Positions 52,090 to 62,441 of a stretch of DNA of 64,000 nt are shown here, in pieces; the stretch's first letter is position 1, and each line of letters opens with the position of its first letter. The position numbers and the translations under genes are program-made. Origin of the DNA: Methanoregula formicica SMSP. GTDB taxonomy: Archaea; Halobacteriota; Methanomicrobia; Methanomicrobiales; Methanospirillaceae. The stretch spans positions 2,480,001 through 2,544,000 of the forward strand of contig NC_019943.1 in the NCBI RefSeq assembly GCF_000327485.1, written 5' to 3'. The notes under the pieces were generated by a model. That model was not told where the DNA came from and did not search any database. It worked only from the letters and a program-made list of their open reading frames with translations.

Positions 52090-52656
52090 TCAGAGCCCGA
52101 AAAATCCAAGGATCCTGCGCCGGGGATCTTTGTAGAAGATCCGTGCGCCATCCTTGATGGTCCGGACATCTTCAATGGTATAGAGGATATCGGGATACTC
52201 TTTTGAGATAACGCTCAGCAGCCTCCCCAGTTCAGTCCTCGGGACGATCATGAAGATAATGGTGACCGTTGAAAAACTGCCCTGCCCCTCGATCCGGGTC
52301 ATCCCGTACCCGAGGGTAGCAAGGTTGGCGATAACCGGCTGGGGATCTCCCGGGGTTATGAGCCGGACGATGACATGGCCAATCGAGATCATGTTCTCGA
52401 TCTGCATACCAAGGAGCGTGCCAATGCCATACCCGGCAAGATACGCAAAGAGGTTCCAGTAGTCGTTCAGGTTGGTTATGACAAGGCCGGTGGAGATCAG
52501 CCAGATCCCGGTCTTGACGATACCGACACAGGCAGAAAGGTTTGCATGACCTTTGCTGACATAGATGGTGCGCAGGGTCTCGAGCGCCGCTTCGACAACC
52601 CGTGCGACCAGAATAAGGACAGGAATAGAGAAGACCAGCGCAACCATATCAGCCAT
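52090..52656 (-). CDS. UPF0316 membrane protein (DUF5698 + DUF2179)
   Basis: 188 residues (192 from a TTG at 52668). Three membrane helices in the first 100 residues (MADMVALVFSIPVLILVARV ... YLAGYGIGTLLGMQIE), with the conserved VEAALETLRTIYVSKGH motif, then a soluble DUF2179 domain (RIEGQGSFSTVTIIFMIVPR). Such proteins are widespread; a second-messenger-binding role for DUF2179 has been suggested but is not shown. The ATG at 52656 is the preferred start. Confidence 0.85.
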   Translation of the reverse strand: MADMVALVFSIPVLILVARVVEAALETLRTIYVSKGHANLSACVGIVKTGIWLISTGLVITNLNDYWNLFAYLAGYGIGTLLGMQIENMISIGHVIVRLITPGDPQPVIANLATLGYGMTRIEGQGSFSTVTIIFMIVPRTELGRLLSVISKEYPDILYTIEDVRTIKDGARIFYKDPRRRILGFFGL

Positions 52657-52757
52657 AATACCCTGCAACTCCTGATCAGAATAGTCTCACCGGCGGGTTT
52701 GAATAGCTTACGGATTCCCCCGGAACAGCGCGGACCAAAGAAACACCGGTATACCGG

Positions 52758-53726
52758 TTATTCACCGCAGATCTCGCGGATGACGGCATCCCCAAACTCC
52801 CGCGTGCCGGCAGAACCACCGAGGTCTCGGGTGCGTATCCCCTCCTGATCGAGTGCCCGGTTAATCGAGCTCTCTATGCGGGCAGCCCCGCTTGAGTCAC
52901 CCAGGTATTCAAGGAGCATTGCGGCACTTCTTATCGCAGCAATCGGGTTCGCGATGTTCTTTCCTGCAATATCCGGTGCACTCCCGTGAACGGGTTCAAA
53001 GAGGGCATAGCGATCACCGATATTCGCACTCGGTGCGAGCCCAAGACCCCCGACAAGAAACGAGGCAACATCCGAGAGGATATCACCAAAGATATTGGTT
53101 GTCACGACCACGTCATAGGCAGCCGGGTGCTGGAGGAGGTCAAGCGCAAGGGCATCGATGAACCGGTCATTACATTCAATACCGGCTTTTTGCGCTTCGC
53201 TGTTGCAGATATCGCGGAAGAGGACGTCTGACTTGAGGACGTTTGCCTTGTGGCCGATTGTCAGGTGCCCCTTTCGCTGGTGAACGAGCCGGATTGCTGA
53301 CCGTACAATCCGCTCGCTGCCAGCCCGGGTCACGACCCGGAGCGTTGTTGCACGGTCGGGGGAGAACTCTTCGATCCCGGAGTAGAGGCCTTCGGTATTT
53401 TCCCGGACAATCATGATATCAAACCCATCGCCTCTCACCGGGCGCAGGTTCGCGTACAGATCGAGTGCCTTCCTGATCCGCAGGACAACACTCTGGTAGT
53501 CTTTCATGGGGGGTGTGGTCACTGCCCCGAACAGGACCGCATCTGCAGTTTTGAGTTCGGTTATCTGCTGGTCGGCGCAGGGACAACCGGTCTGCTCCCA
53601 TTTCCCGTACCCCACTTCGACAGGAAAGTACTCAAACTCGGGATGCAGGGTTTCGAGAATTTTGCGGGCGACCGGGATGACCTCGTGCCCGATCCCATCC
53701 CCTTCAACAACGGCGATCTTTGTCAT
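52758..53726 (-). CDS. aksF: Homoisocitrate dehydrogenase of coenzyme B synthesis (leuB family)
   Basis: 322 residues of the isopropylmalate/isocitrate dehydrogenase family: VVEGDGIGHEVIPVA at the start, LRPVRGDGFDIMIVRENTEG with the catalytic Tyr region following, and GSAPDIAGKNIANPIA near the end. Its operon, with an AksA-like synthase and a YLRT-type homoaconitase, points to homoisocitrate and its longer homologues as substrates, which it oxidatively decarboxylates to 2-oxoadipate, 2-oxopimelate and 2-oxosuberate. Isopropylmalate dehydrogenase activity cannot be excluded. Last gene of the operon, overlapping the previous one by four bases. Confidence 0.85.
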   Translation of the reverse strand: MTKIAVVEGDGIGHEVIPVARKILETLHPEFEYFPVEVGYGKWEQTGCPCADQQITELKTADAVLFGAVTTPPMKDYQSVVLRIRKALDLYANLRPVRGDGFDIMIVRENTEGLYSGIEEFSPDRATTLRVVTRAGSERIVRSAIRLVHQRKGHLTIGHKANVLKSDVLFRDICNSEAQKAGIECNDRFIDALALDLLQHPAAYDVVVTTNIFGDILSDVASFLVGGLGLAPSANIGDRYALFEPVHGSAPDIAGKNIANPIAAIRSAAMLLEYLGDSSGAARIESSINRALDQEGIRTRDLGGSAGTREFGDAVIREICGE

Positions 53727-54523
53727 TTCCCCTTCCATTCCGTAACCAGATTATTAACCGCCCTGGCAACGGTTGCAGGGTTTGCACCCCAGTGGACGAC
53801 ATACCCGGATTTCCCGTTCCAGGTGTCGGGCCCCTCACGTTCTGCCCGGCAGCACCGTGCAATGAATGGTTCTTCCTGCACCTGGCTTAGTGGGCAGATA
53901 TTTTCCAGAGTGATGGTTTTTCCATAGCATTCCGAGCATAGCTGCAATCCTGTCTGGCATCCGGCAATATGCTCTCCCCCAGATACGGGATCTTCATCGA
54001 GAGTTCGATCGAACCCGGCTGCACGGCAGGGATAGACCTCCGCACCGATCTCACGGATGTCCCGTACGTGATGACAAAACCGGACCGAGAGGTCACCAAA
54101 CAGACCCGTTGCTTCCAGTTCTCTCAGGCACATCGACAGATTCGGCCGGGGGGGACTGATATCATAGACATGGATTTCCAGCAGCCCCGAGAGATCGGGA
54201 TCGAGCACAAAGGTCGTATGTTCATCCACACCGGTAAAGACCGTGCACCGGTAGCCGGAATCGAGCGCCAACCGGATGAGGCTTGTCCTGTCGTGCAACT
54301 GCACCCGGTCCGGAAAACGATAAACCTGATCTGCGGTTGCCAGTACCCGGGTCGCGACAATTTCCCGCATCATCCCTTTTCCTTGCGGATCCGGAGTGAC
54401 CTCAAGCACTTCGGTACCATTCGCGGTCTCATGAAGAAGATACCGGCTCAGGAAATAGACCCGGTCGCCACAGGGTTTTGCCGATGCGTGTCCCACGTAC
54501 TTGCAGTGCTCCGGAAAGATCAT
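53723..54523 (-). CDS. Unknown conserved protein inside the coenzyme B operon
   Basis: 266 residues, no family firmly recognised (it may correspond to a methanogen-restricted DUF). It contains about ten cysteines: a CHHVRDIREIGAEVYPCRAA region, GCQTGLQLCSECYGKTITL (C-x7-C-x2-C) and ARCCRAEREG. This pattern could bind a metal or cluster or carry sulfur. An internal VFTGVDEHTTFVLDPDLSGL segment and an ending WGANPATVARAVNNLV look like alpha/beta structure. It overlaps aksE and aksF by four bases each, so it is co-translated with the pathway. Confidence 0.7.
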   Translation of the reverse strand: MIFPEHCKYVGHASAKPCGDRVYFLSRYLLHETANGTEVLEVTPDPQGKGMMREIVATRVLATADQVYRFPDRVQLHDRTSLIRLALDSGYRCTVFTGVDEHTTFVLDPDLSGLLEIHVYDISPPRPNLSMCLRELEATGLFGDLSVRFCHHVRDIREIGAEVYPCRAAGFDRTLDEDPVSGGEHIAGCQTGLQLCSECYGKTITLENICPLSQVQEEPFIARCCRAEREGPDTWNGKSGYVVHWGANPATVARAVNNLVTEWKGK

Positions 54524-54990
54524 TGTCGTTTTCTCCAGTACTCCACGAGACCACCGGCCACCAGGATCTCCTGCATCCTGGGCGATAGGGTTTTTACGCT
54601 ATACCGCTTTCCCGAAACTTCTACAATGCCTTGCGCGAGGTTGAATTTTATCATGTTGCCATCATCGCAGGGTATGTCGGCTTCGATAAGCGGGAGGCCG
54701 ACATTGATGGCATTCCGGAAGAAAATCCGGGCAAACGAGGGCGCAATCACCGCGACCGCCCCGACCTCCCGGATCGCGATTGCGGCCTGTTCCCTTGACG
54801 ACCCGCACCCGAAATTCTTCCCGGCAACGATAACAGCTCCCTTGAGCCGGTGCGCGAGAGAGGGGTCAAGGTCCTCGAAGACATGGGATGCCCAGATGCT
54901 TTTGTCCTTGGTCCGCAAATATCTCCCGGCGATCACCACATCGGTATCGATGTCGGCAGGCAGGCAGACAGCACGCCCCTCTGCTTTCAT
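54520..54990 (-). CDS. aksE: Homoaconitase small subunit
   Basis: 156 residues of the LeuD/aconitase small-subunit family: KNFGCGSSREQAAIAI and APSFARIFFRNAINVGLPL. Residues 24-27 are YLRT. In methanogens, comparison of the Methanocaldococcus proteins linked YLRT (with Arg26) to homoaconitase and YLVY to isopropylmalate isomerase, so this subunit belongs to coenzyme B synthesis. It joins AksD to isomerise homocitrate and its homologues. Its ATG shares one base with the aksD stop. Confidence 0.88.
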   Translation of the reverse strand: MKAEGRAVCLPADIDTDVVIAGRYLRTKDKSIWASHVFEDLDPSLAHRLKGAVIVAGKNFGCGSSREQAAIAIREVGAVAVIAPSFARIFFRNAINVGLPLIEADIPCDDGNMIKFNLAQGIVEVSGKRYSVKTLSPRMQEILVAGGLVEYWRKRQ

Positions 54991-56201
54991 CAGGCAACCT
55001 CCGGGGCAGTGATCTCTCCTGCCAGTGCACTGGCAGCCGCCGTGGCAACCGATGAGAGATAGATCTCTCCCCCGACACCCATGCGGTTCTTGAAGTTGCG
55101 GTTTGCCGTGGATAGACAGACCTCCTCCTCCCCGAGAACGCCCATGTGGGCGCCAAGGCAGGGGCCGCAACCGGGGGTACCGACCGTGCATCCCGCTTCG
55201 ACAATGTCGGCAAGGACACCGGTCCTTGTTGCCTGGAGGAGAACAGAGGCCGATGCGGGGACGACAATCGTCCGGACCGCCACTTTCTTCCCTTTCACGA
55301 TACGGGCAAGCCGTGCCAGGTCGGAGTACCTCCCGTTGGTGCACGTACCGATGAATACCTGGTCAAGGGGAAGCCCGGCAAGTTCGTCAACCGGTTTCAC
55401 CGTGTCGACGCGGTGCGGGACCGCAACAAGGGGAATAATGTCAGAGAGGTCGAATTCCTGCTCCCGGGTATAGGTACAGGATTCGGGGATCTGTGGCTTC
55501 ACGGTATGCCCCCGTTCCCTGAGATAGCGCGCGGTTACATCGTCGGCATAAAACAACCCGGCTTTAGCACCTGCTTCAATGGACAGGTTGGAGAGCACCA
55601 TGCGCTCGTCAATGGACAGATCTTTGACCGCATCTCCGATGAACTCCAGTGCCTGGTAAGTTGCCCCGTCAGTCCCGAGCTCGCCCACGTAGGCAAGGGC
55701 GAGATCCTTTGCCTCCGCAGCCCCGGCAAACCGCCCTTCGAGCCGGATGCCAATTGTTTCCGGAACGCGGAGCCAGGTCTCACCCGTCAGCCAGATCGCC
55801 GCCATGTCCGTTGCCCCGACACCAGTCGCAAATGCTCCAAAGGCGCCGAGCGTGACGCTATGTGAGTCGGCGCCGATAACGATCTCGCCGGGCAGGACAT
55901 TTCCCTCGCCCATCAGCTGGTGGCAGATGCCCCCGCCGACTTCAGAGAAGTTCATGAACGAACTTTTTGCGAATTCACGGAGCTCGTGCTGGAGGGTGGC
56001 GGCAGTGGAATTGTTGGCAGGGGCGATATGATCGAAGAAGATGGAGAACTCGGTATCGTCGGCAAGATGTCGTGCACCCATGTTCTTCCATGCTTCCAGG
56101 GCAAGCATGCCCGTACCGTCACAGGCAAATGCACGGTTTACCTTCCGGTCGACATATTCTCCGGCCGGGGCATTCAGGATACGTTCAGATAACGTGATCA
56201 T
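54990..56201 (-). CDS. aksD: Homoaconitase large subunit
   Basis: 403 residues. FIGTCTNGRYSDL and GTPGCGPCLGAHMGVL supply the three cysteines of the 4Fe-4S cluster, and GADSHSVTLGAFGAFATGVGATD is the conserved substrate region. It is the short archaeal LeuC/HacA type. With AksE it dehydrates and rehydrates homocitrate-type acids of increasing length. Its ATG overlaps the aksA stop by four bases. The start at 56201 fits the family (MITLSERIL). Confidence 0.88.
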   Translation of the reverse strand: MITLSERILNAPAGEYVDRKVNRAFACDGTGMLALEAWKNMGARHLADDTEFSIFFDHIAPANNSTAATLQHELREFAKSSFMNFSEVGGGICHQLMGEGNVLPGEIVIGADSHSVTLGAFGAFATGVGATDMAAIWLTGETWLRVPETIGIRLEGRFAGAAEAKDLALAYVGELGTDGATYQALEFIGDAVKDLSIDERMVLSNLSIEAGAKAGLFYADDVTARYLRERGHTVKPQIPESCTYTREQEFDLSDIIPLVAVPHRVDTVKPVDELAGLPLDQVFIGTCTNGRYSDLARLARIVKGKKVAVRTIVVPASASVLLQATRTGVLADIVEAGCTVGTPGCGPCLGAHMGVLGEEEVCLSTANRNFKNRMGVGGEIYLSSVATAAASALAGEITAPEVA

Positions 56202-57325
56202 GCAGGGGACTCCTTCACTTTCCTTATCAGTTTTCGTAATACTTCCGGGGTGATGTTGCATTTCTGTTCGGAGTGGTCCTTGACCAGGTCGAGGACGGCG
56301 CAGATCTGCTTTTCGGTAAGTTCGCAGCCAAGGGATGCGACAACGTGCTCAAGGGCCTTCTTCCCGGTGTGCTTCCCGAGGATGAAGTGGCGTGTTCCCC
56401 CCACGAGGTCAGGAGAGAAGTATTCATAGGCAGACGGATCATCGAGAATGGCCGCGATGTGAATGCCGCTCTCGTGGGAGAATGCCAGCTCCCCGGTAAC
56501 GGGTTTGTTCCGGGGCAGGAAAATACCGGAATATTTCTCGACCAGATGCGACAGTTCCGTCAGTTTCGAGAGATCGTACCGGTCAATGCCCTTCTTTGTC
56601 CACAGGATAATGAGGAGTTCCTCAAGCGATGTATTTCCTGCCCGCTCACCGATCCCATTCACCGTGGTATGAAGCTGGAACGCGCCGGCTTCCGCTGCGG
56701 TAAGCGTGTTTGCCACGGCACAGCCCATGTCGTTGTGGCAGTGGGCGCAGAACGGGCGATCGACTGATGAGACGAGTTCTGCCATCACCGCGTGCATCTC
56801 GGAAGGGATGAGACAACCCACCGTATCGGCATAGCTGAGGAGGACTGCCCCGCGTTCTGCTGCCCGCTGGTAGACCTTTTTTAAGAACGGGATATCTGTG
56901 CGGGATGCGTCTTCTGCGGCAAACCGCACCTGCGTGCCATGGTCACGGGCATAGTCGATCATCTCCAGGGATTCTTCCAGTACCTGCTCGCGGGGTTTTT
57001 TGAACTTGAGCCGGACGTGAAGCTCGGACGTCGGGATGAAAATGCTCACCATGTCAACACCGCAGTCAATCGCGTCCTGAATATCGGGTTTTTTCGCCCG
57101 GCAGAAGCCGCTGATCCGGGCGTCAAGCCCGAGATTCGCAATCGTCTTCACGCAATGTTTCTCGTTTTCCGATACTGCCGGAAAACCGGCCTCGATCATC
57201 TCGATACCGATCTCGTCCAGCAGGGTGGCAATTTCGACTTTCTCCTTGCAGGAGAACGAAACTCCCGGCGTCTGTTCGCCGTCCCTTAGGGTCACATCAC
57301 AGATCTCAATATTCAATGGTTTCAT
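56198..57325 (-). CDS. aksA: Homocitrate synthase (AksA) of coenzyme B synthesis
   Basis: 375 residues. ICDVTLRDGEQTPGVSFSCKEK is the metal- and oxoacid-binding start of the isopropylmalate/homocitrate synthase family; HCHNDMGCAVANTLTAAEAGA and NGIGERAGNTSLEE complete the TIM-barrel site. The chain stops after the subdomains at 375 residues and lacks the leucine-binding regulatory domain of LeuA, as AksA does. It condenses acetyl-CoA with 2-oxoglutarate, then 2-oxoadipate and 2-oxopimelate. It overlaps the thiamine-enzyme gene by 20 bases. Confidence 0.87.
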   Translation of the reverse strand: MKPLNIEICDVTLRDGEQTPGVSFSCKEKVEIATLLDEIGIEMIEAGFPAVSENEKHCVKTIANLGLDARISGFCRAKKPDIQDAIDCGVDMVSIFIPTSELHVRLKFKKPREQVLEESLEMIDYARDHGTQVRFAAEDASRTDIPFLKKVYQRAAERGAVLLSYADTVGCLIPSEMHAVMAELVSSVDRPFCAHCHNDMGCAVANTLTAAEAGAFQLHTTVNGIGERAGNTSLEELLIILWTKKGIDRYDLSKLTELSHLVEKYSGIFLPRNKPVTGELAFSHESGIHIAAILDDPSAYEYFSPDLVGGTRHFILGKHTGKKALEHVVASLGCELTEKQICAVLDLVKDHSEQKCNITPEVLRKLIRKVKESPA

Positions 57326-58577
57326 GGCTGCTCCCTTCCGGACAAGTCCCGTTCACGACGAGCGTCCGCGGCCTGTCCGTAACCACGAGCTCGCGTTCAA
57401 GTGCCGGTACATCATCAGCCCGGCAGGCGACCGGGTCCGCCCATCGCAGGTACGGGAGCGGATCGTATGACGGCTGCTTACCGGTCATTGCGGTGCAGGT
57501 GTTGTTCATCACGATACAGAGCATCGGGAGACCTTTCTCGTAAACGTCGATGAGCGCATTCAGGCCGGAATGCAGCAGGGCATAGTCCCCGATCAGGGCG
57601 ATTTTCGTGCTCCGCGCCGCAACAGCGATACTGGAACCCATGCCATAACTGGCTGCCCCCAGTTCGTAGGGCGGGGTCATCCCGAGTACCGAACACCCGG
57701 CATCGCAGATCAGCGCCATCCTCCGCTCTTTCAGAATATCCATCATCGGAAGGAACGGACAATTCCTGCAAAACGTACGATAGAAGCCCCGGTCTTCCCA
57801 GGACTGTGGCCGGTCCTGCGGCACCGGGGGAAGGATCCCGCGATGGTCGCGGATGAACGTCCTTCCACGCTCCCGTATGTCCTGGATCCCCGCCACCTGC
57901 TCCGGAGGGGGATTCACGGTGACAATCCGGGTCTTCCCGGGACACGGGCCGGCACCCGCCGGCTCCCCGTTCCACTGGTTCAGGGACGAGGTGGAAGACC
58001 ACGCAAACATGGTGCGGTAGATCTCCTCGGCTGCGGTAACCCGGCCGTTCATTGTCCAGCTCCGTTCCGAGAGCCTGCCTTTCCCAACCTTTGGCTTAAC
58101 GGGGACATGCTCTGCCTCCGAATCCAGCAGGGACGGGGTAAGGCGGAGCATCGCAACCCGTGAGAACTGTTCCGAGGCTTCCAGGGCAGATACTACGCCT
58201 GCGTAGCAGCTGTCAGTACCGGGTTCGATGACCGGCAGCTCCGCAAGTTCGCCGTAATACCGGGAGTCCTGCGAGGTCTGCGATCCCTCGGCATCCGGAT
58301 CGTCGCCTGCAACCAGCACCACGCCGCCGATCAGGCCCTGTGCTGTTGCCTGCAGGAGGGGATCTGCACAGGCATTCACACCAACATTCTTGATGATGAC
58401 TGCGGCTCTCCGCCCTTCGAGCGAATCGCCGAGAGCATATTCCAGGGCGGTCTTCTCGTTGATCACCATCTCCGCGTTCACGCGTGCGCCAAGATCCGTT
58501 ACCGGAAAGCCCGGCACGGTATACTGCCGGTCTGTACATGCCAGCAATGCCTCTGCTATGACATCAATGCCTTTCAT
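57306..58577 (-). CDS. Thiamine-diphosphate enzyme like IorA without its ferredoxin domain
   Basis: 423 residues, against about 600 for indolepyruvate ferredoxin oxidoreductase alpha. The N-terminal domain has IKNVGVNACADPLLQ and GDDPDAEGSQTSQDSRYYGE as in IorA; the C-terminal domain has CRNCPFLPMMD, GMGSSIAVA and the thiamine motif GDYALLHSGLNALID ... IVMNNTCTAMTG. The C-terminal 4Fe-4S domain and an IorB partner are missing, so a ferredoxin-linked oxidation is unlikely. Located between aksA and a radical SAM gene, it is a candidate for decarboxylating 2-oxosuberate to 7-oxoheptanoate (inference). Confidence 0.8.
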   Translation of the reverse strand: MKGIDVIAEALLACTDRQYTVPGFPVTDLGARVNAEMVINEKTALEYALGDSLEGRRAAVIIKNVGVNACADPLLQATAQGLIGGVVLVAGDDPDAEGSQTSQDSRYYGELAELPVIEPGTDSCYAGVVSALEASEQFSRVAMLRLTPSLLDSEAEHVPVKPKVGKGRLSERSWTMNGRVTAAEEIYRTMFAWSSTSSLNQWNGEPAGAGPCPGKTRIVTVNPPPEQVAGIQDIRERGRTFIRDHRGILPPVPQDRPQSWEDRGFYRTFCRNCPFLPMMDILKERRMALICDAGCSVLGMTPPYELGAASYGMGSSIAVAARSTKIALIGDYALLHSGLNALIDVYEKGLPMLCIVMNNTCTAMTGKQPSYDPLPYLRWADPVACRADDVPALERELVVTDRPRTLVVNGTCPEGSSHETIEY

Positions 58578-59542
58578 CCATCCCTCCCAGGAACAAGGTC
58601 GCATCCGGCACAGTTCGTACACATCGTCTCCGCCAGACGGGCATCAAGTCCTGCCGCTTCAAGAGCCTGCCCGTGAACTGCGAAGATTTTCTTCAGCCGA
58701 CCGGCAGACGGACGGGGCACATCGGAAAGCTCAGCAACCGGGTTGAGCGGGCGGAAGACCGGAATCACGCCATGGCTTGTAAGCCTCCAGATACAGGCCA
58801 CCAGTTCAGCATCCGTCTCGCCAAGGCCTATGATGACATTCGAAAAGACACGATTCTTCCCGAAGAGTTCTACCGAACGGTCGAGAACCTGCCAGATCCG
58901 GCTGTAATCCAGACCGGGACACATCTTTAAAAACAGTTCCGGCGTCGCCGCTTCGAGGTTGAATTTCACTTCGGCAACGCCGATCTCATGGAGCCGATCG
59001 GGAGTCTTCTCTGTCGGGTAAATGGAGACGCCGATCGGAAGGCGAAAGCAGGCAAGACGCCTGACCACTTCCAGCACATATGCTTCCTCCTCTTCAATAC
59101 TCTCCAGCACCCCGCTCGTGATCGAGATCGCATGGATACGATGCCGCACGGATTCCACCATCGCCATGATCTCGTCGATACTCTTTCTTTTCCCATGGGT
59201 ATTCGGCACATTGCAGTACCGGCACCGGAAGATACAGCTGCCCGTGACCGTGATGAACGCCTGGTCAGGGCAGTGGAAACCCGGCTCTAGGAGCCTGCCG
59301 CTGATAAGATTTCCATCAAGGTAGAGGTCAGCTGCACCATTGCCCCGGTGAACAACCTCCACGGGACTTGCCGGGTCCAGGGCGAGTTTCACCCGGTGAC
59401 TGCCCATGGCAAAAAATACTGCACCACTGCCACCGGCCCCGGGACCTGCTGCGGAGCGCGCAACAAACCGTTCTGCCGGTTCACCGGTCAGATGTACAGC
59501 TCCGGTTTCAAGCAGCTGTGCTTTCAGGTCTTTCCACTGCAT
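58574..59542 (-). CDS. Radical SAM enzyme with extra C-terminal cysteine motif
   Basis: 322 residues. C103-x3-C107-x2-C110 (GSCIFRCRYCNVPNTHGK) is the radical SAM cluster site; SITSGVLES may be the GGE-like element. The C-terminus carries C308-x2-C311-x2-C314, able to bind an auxiliary cluster, as sulfur-inserting enzymes such as LipA and BioB need. The first 85 residues are a separate domain. Its stop overlaps the thiamine-enzyme start (ATGA) and its start overlaps the TiaS-like gene by 19 bases. The substrate is unknown; a role in thiol introduction for coenzyme B is a hypothesis. Confidence 0.82.
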   Translation of the reverse strand: MQWKDLKAQLLETGAVHLTGEPAERFVARSAAGPGAGGSGAVFFAMGSHRVKLALDPASPVEVVHRGNGAADLYLDGNLISGRLLEPGFHCPDQAFITVTGSCIFRCRYCNVPNTHGKRKSIDEIMAMVESVRHRIHAISITSGVLESIEEEEAYVLEVVRRLACFRLPIGVSIYPTEKTPDRLHEIGVAEVKFNLEAATPELFLKMCPGLDYSRIWQVLDRSVELFGKNRVFSNVIIGLGETDAELVACIWRLTSHGVIPVFRPLNPVAELSDVPRPSAGRLKKIFAVHGQALEAAGLDARLAETMCTNCAGCDLVPGRDG

Positions 59543-60420
59543 AGTTCCAGCGCCTCATCGTACCGTGTGAAAAAGGGGATGGCTGCCACCGCACCGACAA
59601 TTCCTCTGCCCTTCATGAGAATATTCAGATCCGGGTCCCCGAGAGTGTCCAGCTCACCTGCATCAATCTCTCCCCGTTTGACACGGCGCCCGTATGCCAT
59701 CAGTTCTTCCGAGGGTGCGAAACCGGAATATACGGCCATGCCGGTTTTCTTCGACAAGGTGTATTGTTCCAGCAGCTGCCGGAAACGGCCCGTCAGCCCT
59801 TCGGGATCACTTGTCGCGAACTCAGCGACCAGCCCTACGCAGTTCTTGGTCCGGTACGGTACCGGGTAAAGCTGGACGATGGTATGTGACAGGTAGATCG
59901 ACCGGTCATCCTCAACAGCACGGGCAATATTGTGGACAAGGGTCCACGTTGCGCCTTCTTCAGGAGTGTCCGTGTCATCGACACCAATCAATACCCGCTG
60001 CATCCTCGGGAGCCATACCGTTGCCCCGGCGATCTTCCCCCCGCCGGCTGGATCGCTCCGGCTCCGGAGGACGCCGGCTGCATCGGAGCGGCATGCCGCA
60101 GCACCGACTCCCCCGCCGCCCATTCCGATATAGGTGATGGCGATCTCGTCTCCTTCGATCCTGCAGGAAGAGATTCCTGCCGGGAACCGCGATCCCTCCA
60201 GCGCAAGGTCAACGGTTCCGGTCTTCAGGAGGTATCGCATCGTGGATCCCACGCACCGGACATCCCGCACGAGCGGGCTCTGTGCGTAATGGAGCTTCGA
60301 CCACATTGCACCGCCAATACAGTCAAAAAACTCGATGAGTTCAACTGCAGCCCCGGTGGCATCGGCCACCGCAACGATCCGCGGATAGTGGATGACGTAG
60401 GGATCAGAGATGTTCGCCAT
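59524..60420 (-). CDS. TiaS-like DDTD protein, marker protein 11-like, copy 2
   Basis: 298 residues. VLIGVDDTDTPEEGATWTLV is the DDTD ATP-binding signature of TiaS-type kinase domains; LSHTIVQLYPVPYRTKNCVG matches the following strand-loop. The N-terminal 140 residues resemble the neighbouring paralogue (GMGGGGVGAAACRS against GAGVGVAACLPQ). It lacks the OB and zinc-ribbon domains of TiaS. It belongs to, or resembles, putative methanogenesis marker protein 11. It overlaps the upstream copy by 17 bases. Confidence 0.78.
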   Translation of the reverse strand: MANISDPYVIHYPRIVAVADATGAAVELIEFFDCIGGAMWSKLHYAQSPLVRDVRCVGSTMRYLLKTGTVDLALEGSRFPAGISSCRIEGDEIAITYIGMGGGGVGAAACRSDAAGVLRSRSDPAGGGKIAGATVWLPRMQRVLIGVDDTDTPEEGATWTLVHNIARAVEDDRSIYLSHTIVQLYPVPYRTKNCVGLVAEFATSDPEGLTGRFRQLLEQYTLSKKTGMAVYSGFAPSEELMAYGRRVKRGEIDAGELDTLGDPDLNILMKGRGIVGAVAAIPFFTRYDEALELCSGKT

Positions 60421-61360
60421 AGAGTCCCGCTGCCTCGATACCTCGGTTGCCCCAGAGCACCGCACCCAGTGCACCGATCCTGCCTTTCCGGCCATTGGTA
60501 TCGATGAATGTAATGCCCATCTCCCGTGCCGCTTCTTCTGCCCGATCTACCGTCATGATCTCCTGCTTCACCTCAGCAAATGCCGGAGAGTCACGGGAGA
60601 AACCGATCCCCCGGTGGTACGCTATCCCGGTATCCTTCGAGAACGTATTCTGCTCCACGTATGCCCTGACAAAATCGAGGAGTGCCTGCACCTTGTCCGG
60701 CCTGACGGCGAAGTTCAGCGCTGAACCAACGCAATTCGTGGTCTTGGTGGGAACCGCCGGGTTGAGCTGGATGAGACGCATGTTCAAAAATTCGACCCCG
60801 GGGATCGTGCATGCACCGGCGCATTTCAGCGCCATCACCCAGGTTGCACCTTCCGTTTTAGTATCGGTATCATCGATCCCGATACAGATCTTCTCATACA
60901 TGGGGGATACAATCCTGACGCGGTTGGTGCGTGCCCCGCCAATTTTCAGGTCCTCCTCGCTTGGGTATTCGGCCCGGATAACTCCGGGTGCCTGGGGGAG
61001 GCACGCAGCAACACCGACACCGGCACCGGCAATGCCGGCCCATGAAGTGATTACCTCGTCACCCGATACTTCGACTGCTTCGAGAGCCTGCCCGCCAATC
61101 TCCCCGGCCGCAGCACCAAAATTCACCGGGTGCCTGCCCAGTTTTGCCGAGATCACCATGCTGGTCCCCTCAACAGAACATCCTTCAACAGCACCGCCCG
61201 CTCTCTTCCGGTTCATGGCATCCCATTCAATGGGGCCTCGTGCCCGGCACTGCTCAAGGATCTCGGCCCTGCCGCTCTGCTCATCGACCATAACCAGGAA
61301 TTTTTGCGAGAAGAGCGGTCCGAACCGCTTCGTAACTTCGTTGGGAATAAGGGTGACCAT
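60404..61360 (-). CDS. TiaS-like DDTD protein, marker protein 11-like, copy 1
   Basis: 318 residues, first gene of the nine-gene operon. CIGIDDTDTKTEGATWVMAL is the DDTD motif; RLIQLNPAVPTKTTNCVGSA resembles the TiaS nucleotide-binding segment (RLNPNVPxKTRGN). The N-terminal part has GIAGAGVGVAACLPQAPGVI. In TiaS this domain is a kinase-like module that uses ATP to activate tRNA; here a small-molecule kinase or ligase is plausible. A TATA box lies 45 bases before the start. It is a paralogue of the next gene. Confidence 0.8.
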   Translation of the reverse strand: MVTLIPNEVTKRFGPLFSQKFLVMVDEQSGRAEILEQCRARGPIEWDAMNRKRAGGAVEGCSVEGTSMVISAKLGRHPVNFGAAAGEIGGQALEAVEVSGDEVITSWAGIAGAGVGVAACLPQAPGVIRAEYPSEEDLKIGGARTNRVRIVSPMYEKICIGIDDTDTKTEGATWVMALKCAGACTIPGVEFLNMRLIQLNPAVPTKTTNCVGSALNFAVRPDKVQALLDFVRAYVEQNTFSKDTGIAYHRGIGFSRDSPAFAEVKQEIMTVDRAEEAAREMGITFIDTNGRKGRIGALGAVLWGNRGIEAAGLYGEHL

Positions 61361-61404: not shown

Positions 61405-61412
61405 TATTTATA
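61405..61412 (-). promoter_or_regulatory. TATA box of the coenzyme B operon
   Basis: TATAAATA on the minus strand, with a predicted transcript start near 61380-61386 and a leader of about 20-25 bases before the first ATG at 61360. A partial inverted repeat TGTA-TTAACA-TACA near 61450 could be an upstream element. Confidence 0.6.
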
Positions 61413-61556: not shown

Positions 61557-62441
61557 TCAGAGGACTTTGTGAAGCTCGATCTTGAAGGGTCCGAGCGTGC
61601 CGCCAAAGTTACCGGCCGAGATGAATTTGACACCCGGCACAGTTACTGCCGCCTTGATACCGGCTGCCATTGCTGCTGCAACCGACTTCTCGTCAACACC
61701 GTCAATGACGATCTCGTACACGGCCTTTACACCGGCCGGGATCTTGGAGTCTGCGACCTTCTCGCGGAGGGTCGGGCAGTACTTCTCGTTCGTGGATGCG
61801 GGCATGAACTTGTACTTCAGGCTGCCGACCTTGGAGCCGCTCGCAACGACACCGCCGGGGAAGCTCGTAATGGTCCCGGCAACACCGTCGATTGCCTCGA
61901 CTGCTGCCTGGGCACCCATGAGGGCTGCCATCTGGTTCTCGCCCATGACAAAGAAGTTCCCGCCGGCAACGCCCTTGACGATGCCGAACTCTTCCTCACC
62001 GACATATTCGCCTTCCATGATCGGGATAACCCAGCACTTCCTGCCGCCGACTTCCTTCTGGTACTCGTGGCCATCGCCAAAGAAGTGGAGTTTGACCGGG
62101 ATCTTCTCTTCGGCATTGGTGATGCCGTTAAAGACAGCAGTCGTGGGTGCCGTCAGGACGCACTCCGCAAGGCGCTCTACGACCTGTTCTTTGAGTTTCT
62201 TCTTGCTGGCACAGATCAGGATTGCCACGCCGGGGCGTCCGTCGGGGGTCTGTGAACCGTCCAGCTCACACTCGATACCTGCCTCGCACGGGCAGCCGAT
62301 CGCGGATGTGGCAAACCCGGTAGCCTCGGTTGCTGCCTTCTTTGCCCATTCCTTGTTCACTGCAGTGATGATGACCCGGCAGACCCAGGTCGGGAATGCC
62401 TCTGCATAGGTATTGTCAATAGTAACGCCGTTGATTTCCAT
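61557..62441 (-). CDS. ftr: Formylmethanofuran:tetrahydromethanopterin formyltransferase
   Basis: 294 residues, full length. MEINGVTIDNTYAEAFPTWV and VIITAVNKEWAKKAA are the known start; AIGCPCEAGIECEL and ATSAIG continue the conserved core; the C-terminus is GGTLGPFKIELHKVL. It moves the formyl group from methanofuran to tetrahydromethanopterin, the second step of CO2 reduction to methane. A GAGGT site precedes the ATG, and an inverted repeat lies in its leader. Divergent from the fwd genes, which make its substrate. Confidence 0.97.
   Translation of the reverse strand: MEINGVTIDNTYAEAFPTWVCRVIITAVNKEWAKKAATEATGFATSAIGCPCEAGIECELDGSQTPDGRPGVAILICASKKKLKEQVVERLAECVLTAPTTAVFNGITNAEEKIPVKLHFFGDGHEYQKEVGGRKCWVIPIMEGEYVGEEEFGIVKGVAGGNFFVMGENQMAALMGAQAAVEAIDGVAGTITSFPGGVVASGSKVGSLKYKFMPASTNEKYCPTLREKVADSKIPAGVKAVYEIVIDGVDEKSVAAAMAAGIKAAVTVPGVKFISAGNFGGTLGPFKIELHKVL

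Follow-up and report, generated by a model that had tools for sequence, protein, structure and literature searches.

A nine-gene operon of Methanoregula formicica with candidate enzymes for the later steps of coenzyme B synthesis

The window analysed here, 64,000 nucleotides of the archaeon Methanoregula formicica SMSP (contig NC_019943.1, forward-strand positions 2,480,001 to 2,544,000), belongs to a genome that forms one contig of 2,820,858 bases. At window positions 61360-52758 a minus-strand operon of nine genes combines the chain-elongation genes aksA, aksD, aksE and aksF with genes for five further proteins. Its gene order, its distribution and a set of natural deletions in related genomes argue, on balance, that this operon makes coenzyme B from 2-oxoglutarate with the candidate enzymes proposed below.

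Methyl-coenzyme M reductase, the methane-releasing enzyme, uses coenzyme B as a substrate, and AksA, AksDE and AksF, as established for the named families, lengthen the chain from 2-oxoglutarate to 2-oxosuberate. The aks part of the operon is already known; new are the homology of its DUF7714 protein to XcbA, the TiaS domain in Mmp11 (methanogenesis marker 11) and the natural co-deletions. A literature search, with preprints and subscription papers outside its scope, found no assigned enzyme for the later steps of coenzyme B synthesis, and found none of the DUF7714-XcbA link, the natural deletions or the Mmp11-TiaS argument for coenzyme B in print. In the sections available of one 2025 paper, the coenzyme B biosynthetic pathway is still called unknown and is said possibly to need Mmp16 or L-ASST (PMC12068725).

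According to the proposed pathway, AksA, AksDE and AksF of the operon would provide 2-oxosuberate, which a thiamine diphosphate enzyme (57306-58577; the thiamine enzyme below) would decarboxylate non-oxidatively to 7-oxoheptanoate. DUF7714 (53723-54523) would replace the aldehyde by a thiol via five conserved cysteines, yielding 7-mercaptoheptanoate, and Mmp11 (59524-60420), with a TiaS-type kinase domain, would phosphorylate the threonine hydroxyl or activate the carboxylate for amide formation. A radical S-adenosylmethionine (SAM) protein would act within the pathway or its control, and DUF7714 may perhaps also serve coenzyme M, the setting of XcbA, in which case it would be dual in other genomes. 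The route from 2-oxoacid to aldehyde to thiol resembles, by logic only, that of ComDE and Mmp16 in coenzyme M synthesis.

Organization of the operon

All eight junctions of the nine open reading frames overlap, by 17, 19, 4, 20, 4, 1, 4 and 4 bases in 5' to 3' order; with an alternative AksF start at 53738, the final overlap (DUF7714/AksF) is 16 bases. A first-pass annotation, made from the letters of the window, had described nine minus-strand genes with overlaps of 1 to 20 bases behind one TATA box, and all of this is confirmed in the sequence. Its gene labels could be refined: one of its two "DDTD proteins" is Mmp11, over the TIGR03280 cut-off, the other is a paralogue under that cut-off (M11b), and its "Cys-rich protein" is Pfam DUF7714. 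The parts are as follows.

61405..61412, minus strand: TATA box TATAAATA of the operon, read directly in the sequence, 45 bases before the first ATG
60404..61360, minus strand: M11b, Mmp11 paralogue with TiaS kinase (TCKD) domain, an optional member (TIGR03280 188.9 bits, PF22641 51.6 bits)
59524..60420, minus strand: Mmp11, candidate ATP-dependent phosphotransferase of coenzyme B assembly (TIGR03280 337.9 bits)
58574..59542, minus strand: radical SAM protein with CxxxCxxC and a C-terminal CxxCxxC (PF04055)
57306..58577, minus strand: IorA-like thiamine diphosphate enzyme without ferredoxin tail, candidate 2-oxosuberate decarboxylase (TIGR03336 148 bits)
56198..57325, minus strand: AksA, chain elongation of the homocitrate-synthase type (orthologues 56-61% identical in 8 of 8 control genomes)
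54990..56201, minus strand: AksD, homoaconitase large subunit (NF001614 490 bits, HacA_Meth 420.8 bits)
54520..54990, minus strand: AksE, homoaconitase small subunit (TIGR02087 169 bits; HacB2_Meth 168 bits, below its cut-off)
53723..54523, minus strand: DUF7714, XcbA homologue, candidate aldehyde-to-thiol enzyme (PF24830 311 bits, NF052538 (XcbA) 56.8 bits)
52758..53726, minus strand: AksF, homoisocitrate dehydrogenase (LEU3_arch 391, AksF2_Meth 336.9 and leuB 246 bits, all below curated cut-offs)
61557-62441: Ftr (formyltransferase), upstream of the operon
52090-52668, minus strand: hypothetical protein of PRK04164 families, 89 bases downstream of AksF

By homology, the operon has the same three enzyme activities as the Aks pathway of the M. 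jannaschii type, here gathered in one operon; it differs in falling short of several equivalog cut-offs and in adding five further proteins. Two chain-elongation models were not reached (HacA_Meth, 420.8 bits against a cut-off of 550; AksF2_Meth, 336.9 against 540), and the isomerase (AksD/AksE) reaches the cut-offs of broader subfamilies.

Conservation of gene order

Among 80 named Methanomicrobiales loci fetched with Mmp11, 61 have the order Mmp11 - radical SAM - thiamine enzyme - AksA - AksD - AksE - DUF7714 - AksF, and the remaining 19 are collinear with it up to the end of the contig or locus, without a single departure. As the same eight-gene order recurs in 61 loci with no exception, the arrangement is not due to chance. 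The first gene, M11b, was found in 46 of the 80 loci and is therefore an optional member, and in two Methanocorpusculum-like genomes (G166, G175) DUF7714 and M11b have shifted to the flanks of the core.

The partners also remain together, despite rearrangement, in other mcrA-bearing families; the family labels (f7, f8, f14, f22 and so on) are those of the tool used, and the clade names attached to them are an interpretation, partly from the mcrA type. The thiamine enzyme stands with AksA, AksD, AksF and DUF7714 in all four thiamine-enzyme regions of f7 (ANME-2-like) and in all four of f14 (Methanoperedenaceae-like), AksE not being picked up in two of the latter. In f8 (Methanosarcinaceae-like) and f22 (Methanotrichaceae-like), Mmp11 adjoins the thiamine enzyme in 5/5 Mmp11 regions, and DUF7714 adjoins AksE in 4/4 DUF7714 regions, three of which also have AksF.

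Co-occurrence in 157 genomes

The distribution of these genes was followed in 157 genomes of the phylum, class I methanogens being represented by named control genomes only. Mmp11 was counted over the TIGR03280 cut-off, mcrA at an E value of 1e-50 with divergent and partial copies included, and the radical SAM family at 181 bits or more, which leaves out G031, G128, G155, G045 and weaker matches; for the thiamine enzyme the best operon-type match per genome was taken, and IorA-type matches in frames of about 600 residues were left out. Mmp11 is present in 72 genomes, DUF7714 in 63, the radical SAM family in 65, mcrA in 88 and, among the matches listed, the operon-type thiamine enzyme in 62. 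When short relatives of the thiamine enzyme are included, 62 genomes have both it and DUF7714, one has DUF7714 only (G136), two have the thiamine enzyme only and 92 have neither, again among the matches listed. DUF7714 and Mmp11 occur together in 62 of the genomes, Mmp11 and the thiamine enzyme in 61, and in 53 of these the latter two lie on one strand at most 4 kb apart (among the matches listed). The Fisher p values of co-occurrence are tiny, with relatedness ignored. The M. acetivorans control has a DUF7714 match. Three genomes with DUF7714 and eight with Mmp11 have no mcrA match; two of the eight (G145, G054) are probably assembly gaps, since both belong to mcrA-bearing families.

Natural deletions

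Gene loss was surveyed in 159 Methanomicrobiales genomes at least 85% complete, of which 148 have the thiamine enzyme and 11 gave no match to it. Four of the 11 (G162, G163, G241, G280) were dropped as contig breaks, their aks genes running to the contig end, and seven true losses remain: G136, G171, G172, G173 and G176 of genus g14, and G222 and G224 of g12. At least two of the losses are independent, because two families are concerned. The AksA orthologue is missing from six of the seven and present in all eight relatives that have the thiamine enzyme (Fisher p 0.0014). Three loss genomes (G136, G173, G176) keep M11b, Mmp11, the radical SAM gene and DUF7714 without the thiamine enzyme; in the other four (G171, G172, G222, G224), only M11b and DUF7714 of these genes were found. 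By co-loss, the link of the thiamine enzyme to AksA is firm, and that of Mmp11 and the radical SAM protein is looser.

Reduction has gone furthest in place in G222 and G224, where the operon consists of an Ftr-sized gene (in G222, Ftr itself), M11b, DUF7714 and an aldehyde dehydrogenase gene; the set of nine is complete in their congeners G221 and G223. AksA, AksF, the thiamine enzyme, Mmp11 and the radical SAM protein were not found in the two reduced genomes (completeness 91 and 89%), nor was any synthase of the AksA/LeuA/CimA kind at E 1e-20. The gene of the aldehyde dehydrogenase family lies directly 3' of DUF7714 in both (L230:11412-12929; L231:2266-3666). By their missing synthases, G222 and G224 may fit Methanomicrobium mobile. 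For this species, the accessible sections of one paper name coenzyme B, isovalerate and 2-methylbutyrate among its requirements, list boiled extract of another methanogen as well, and do not name coenzyme M; in section 12 the mobile factor is said to be of unknown nature, and a 1991 title cited there has 7-mercaptoheptanoylthreonine phosphate replacing it (PMC10658910).

Candidate enzymes for the later steps

The protein most closely tied to AksA, the thiamine enzyme, is quite likely a non-oxidative 2-oxosuberate decarboxylase. It shares the catalytic Glu and the thiamine motif with IorA, the alpha subunit of indolepyruvate ferredoxin oxidoreductase, and its thiamine diphosphate motifs (catalytic Glu, GD...N) are intact; 20 sequences from five groups all keep E41, G330-D331, N359 and four cysteines. 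Unlike IorA, it has 423 residues against a model of 595 positions, reaches 148 bits on that model (TIGR03336) against a cut-off of 650.9, lacks the ferredoxin tail, its C-terminus holding one conserved Cys only, and has no IorB partner in the operon. The missing tail together with the missing IorB therefore indicates a non-oxidative decarboxylation. A comparison with solved structures by sequence gave no match.

The candidate for the thiol-forming step is DUF7714, which sequence comparison shows to be homologous to XcbA, a protein encoded in the coenzyme M cluster of bacteria. The XcbA model NF052538 matches over most of the length with 56.8 bits here and 74-91 bits in six relatives, under the cut-off of 150, and a profile comparison (hhalign) gives a probability of 98.7 and an E value of 2.8e-16 over 233 columns. 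Five cysteines (C166, C189, C210, C224, C225) are invariant in 14 DUF7714 and two XcbA sequences, and W245-G246 is also common to both. The two differ in that DUF7714 is only about 23-27% identical to XcbA and has aks genes as its neighbours, whereas the xcbA genes of Xanthobacter autotrophicus pXAUT01 and Nocardioides pNOCA01 (NF052538 470 and 411 bits) adjoin phosphosulfolactate synthase. XcbA presumably performs the last step of bacterial coenzyme M synthesis. It is called a functional analogue of the sulfoacetaldehyde dehydrogenase of coenzyme M synthesis in the part available of one source (PMC11507031). By analogy, DUF7714 probably performs thiol chemistry, and its substrate is likely longer than that of XcbA; that 7-oxoheptanoate is a main substrate has a chance slightly short of even. 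The predicted model of DUF7714 is good (mean predicted local distance difference test score, pLDDT, 86). It is neutral as to a known fold, with a best Foldseek E value of 0.14 and only common arrangements in VIA-align (best Z 6.3, 94 residues), and against solved structures by sequence there were only weak matches, to designed helical proteins.

A further family that bears on thiol formation, COG1900 (PF01837), is present in 126 of the 157 genomes. The window genome has a single such gene (contig 1984914-1985927), and eight of nine f1 genomes are without the second, shorter copy, Mmp16-type by interpretation, that is present in most other methanogen genomes here, which raises the question of how f1 genomes make coenzyme M.

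The C-terminal half of Mmp11 is, according to its structural model, the kinase domain of TiaS (tRNA-Ile2 agmatidine synthetase). Mmp11 reaches 337.9 bits on TIGR03280 (cut-off 255.8; M11b, with 188.9 bits, stays under it) and 44.7 bits on PF22641, the TCKD kinase domain. Five TiaS entries align with residues 141-292 of the model at Z 17.1-18.0 over 129-149 residues and 2.0-2.5 A (Foldseek E 4.8e-8), the next structural row having Z 7.1. T158 aligns with TiaS Thr18, which we take to be the residue that gives the TCKD domain its name, and T158 and the DDTD motif are invariant in 14 Mmp11 sequences. The kinase fold, the DDTD motif and the Thr18 position are thus common to the two proteins, but only the kinase domain is: the N-terminal half of Mmp11 is different, and no match extends over the length of TiaS. 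On the full-length TiaS model NF040849 (cut-off 600), M11b gives 39 bits over residues 157-301 and no Mmp11 match is listed. Mmp11 would, somewhat more probably than otherwise, carry out one ATP-dependent assembly step, be it phosphorylation or carboxylate activation. M11b would not be dedicated to de novo synthesis, and the guess that it is a salvage kinase is a doubtful one.

M11b and a further paralogue also occur in other settings. M11b adjoins Mmp4/MtxX (PTA-like) in four f14 regions (L205, L206, L207, L208) and one f10 genome (L199), and adjoins Mmp8 and an A2-like ABC protein in one mcrA-bearing f9 genome (L192). The window genome also encodes a third Mmp11-like paralogue (L204:9077-10183; contig 1452577-1453683), which carries a helix-turn-helix at its N-terminus and whose gene overlaps that of homoserine dehydrogenase, a pairing also seen in two f18 genomes (L197, L198); it is possibly a regulator or kinase of the threonine pathway. 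A search for canonical thrB in the 27 Methanomicrobiales of the 157-genome set came up empty in 26 and gave a single weak match in the remaining one (G153). The idea that the paralogue is a TCKD homoserine kinase was nevertheless dropped as not needed, because an alternative kinase (TIGR02535) is present in all 27 Methanomicrobiales, and the paralogue carries a helix-turn-helix; in the window, the proposed homoserine kinase of the phosphoglycerate-mutase type lies at 1746-2888 on the minus strand (TIGR02535 519 bits).

Weighing the pathway against alternative explanations

The observations of this section include those that weigh against the proposed pathway. DUF7714 is absent from 28 of the 88 mcrA-bearing genomes and Mmp11 from 24, in families f10, f12, f18, f24 and f28, and mcrA-bearing f9 genomes and G020 have Mmp11 without DUF7714; the operon set is therefore not a universal coenzyme B route. 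The M. jannaschii control, too, matches TIGR03280 and has no DUF7714 match. Six genomes without an mcrA match have Mmp11 over its cut-off (G024, G034, G043 and G132 of the Archaeoglobaceae-like f9, G052 of f16 and G149 of f26), contrary to a family description limited to methanogens. There is no amide ligase in the operon beyond Mmp11. One of the loss genomes, G136, keeps a lone AksA elsewhere in the genome, and the genome-wide search of the seven left out AksD and AksE.

The first-pass annotation had proposed that the five unknowns supply the missing steps of coenzyme B synthesis. This stands for the thiamine enzyme, co-lost with AksA, and needs revision for DUF7714 and M11b, which the seven loss genomes keep. 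Its view that the chemistry of the unknowns matches the missing reactions suits two of them, DUF7714 through XcbA and Mmp11 through the TiaS kinase, and leaves the radical SAM protein aside. The search of gene neighbourhoods and co-occurrence that it suggested bears it out in the shared order of 61/80 loci and in the thiamine enzyme of 62/63 DUF7714 genomes (among the matches listed), and goes against it in the mcrA-bearing genomes without DUF7714. It had held that genes scattered away from aks, or present in non-methanogens, would speak against its reading; some of this is seen in the Mmp11 and related radical SAM genes of the six mcrA-less genomes and in an aks-thiamine row in G134.

The retention of DUF7714 and M11b in all seven loss genomes implies that they cannot serve only de novo coenzyme B synthesis, and that a coenzyme B auxotroph continues to require some function of theirs; in G222 and G224, DUF7714 keeps its cysteines and has lost R79 and H244. 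COG1900 proteins are moreover a published alternative for the thiol step, in the part available of PMC12068725, and it is possible that they are the only thiol enzyme of coenzyme B. One explanation for the retention is that DUF7714 makes coenzyme M only, by the XcbA reaction on sulfoacetaldehyde, and has a transcript in common with aks as both thiols are needed together. This is consistent with its homology to XcbA, with its persistence where AksA, the thiamine enzyme, Mmp11 and the radical SAM protein are lost, with the single COG1900 protein of the window genome and of seven of the eight other f1 genomes, and with the listing, in the sections seen of PMC10658910, of coenzyme B and boiled methanogen extract, without mention of coenzyme M, among the needs of the species to which the reduced genomes may belong. 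It is nevertheless rather unlikely, as DUF7714 adjoins aks in nearly all regions that were read with aks and are uncut by a contig end (coenzyme M genes were not looked for around DUF7714); the exceptions are G166 and G175, where DUF7714 is divergent at the far end of the cluster.

The proposed pathway also competes with a reading in which Mmp11 and its radical SAM neighbour serve to modify some protein of methane metabolism, for example methyl-coenzyme M reductase or its partners, or another cofactor of that metabolism, and are passengers in the operon. The family catalogue names Mmp11 a methanogenesis marker, and a radical SAM protein of the MSMEG_0568 type adjoins it in 7/7 f9 Mmp11 regions, six of them without an aks match (in L187 an AksD/LeuC-like end lies 9 kb from the pair), and also in f16 and f26. 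Eight of these nine radical SAM neighbours score 208-331 bits against a cut-off of 303.7, reached in f16 only, and that of L190 was recognized by similarity. Loss genomes G136, G173 and G176, as noted, keep the two genes without the thiamine enzyme. However, four of the seven f9 pairs are in genomes without an mcrA match, and neither gene was found in four genomes of methanogen genera from which AksA and the thiamine enzyme are absent too, so this reading is improbable, if slightly less so than those that follow.

The radical SAM protein is a weak point of the pathway in its own right, as it is without an obvious place in the textbook route. In the tree, some supports of which are low, the operon copy forms a long, fast-evolving Methanomicrobiales branch, and a second copy (contig 2418077-2418988), 49% identical, groups with the form of other lineages. 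CxxxCxxC and the C-terminal CxxCxxC are present in 23 of 24 sequences, the 24th being a fragment. That this protein inserts the coenzyme B thiol, rather than the thiol arising via an aldehyde, is suggested by its matches to the models of the sulphur-inserting LipS2 (65 bits, cut-off 270) and BioB (29 bits), and by the C-terminal cysteines, which could carry a second cluster. However, all its subfamily matches are far below curated cut-offs, an equal match (65 bits) is to MSMEG_0568, a family of unknown function, its gene is located elsewhere in f8 and f22, and the thiamine enzyme and the XcbA homologue already supply an aldehyde route; the insertion is accordingly given little credence.

Two genomes without DUF7714 and mcrA carry short relatives of the thiamine enzyme. 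In G134 (L250, contig C71), AksA (50% identical to that of the window), AksD, AksE and AksF are followed by a 475-residue relative that keeps the Glu and GD and has changed the conserved cysteines and N359; the other operon genes are not in the row, and the genome has no match to mcrA, to DUF7714, or to Mmp11 over its cut-off. G149 has a short relative of 496 residues with the catalytic Glu and the cysteines, no adjoining aks gene and Mmp11 elsewhere, and is without DUF7714 or mcrA. The G134 row is a further link between the thiamine enzyme and aks; as this genome gives no indication of methyl-coenzyme M reductase, however, an aks-thiamine-enzyme unit may have uses besides coenzyme B. A role of the unit in making leucine, isoleucine or pimelate semialdehyde (biotin), with an operon unrelated to coenzyme B, gains somewhat in weight from the G134 row, and the synthase, isomerase and dehydrogenase, under several curated cut-offs, match leucine models too; it is very improbable all the same, as the window genome has two other full-length synthases, the synthase of the operon is 56-61% identical to that of sister genomes against 38-44% for the types of about 500 residues, AksF scores higher on homoisocitrate than on leuB models, and DUF7714 is confined among the 157 genomes to families with mcrA.

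Implications

A wider reading, speculative and unlikely as a whole, would make DUF7714 an archaeal XcbA that forms the thiol of coenzyme M as well as that of coenzyme B; the bacterial and archaeal coenzyme M pathways would then have a common last enzyme family. In the same reading, Mmp11 and its paralogues would form a family of kinases or ligases that act on small molecules with the kinase domain of the tRNA enzyme TiaS, and one member would be a kinase of coenzyme B salvage. The operon and the natural deletions together lead to a short list of candidates, with one decarboxylase, one thiol-forming enzyme that has a bacterial relative and one ATP-using enzyme. The same genes are potential targets against methane formation.

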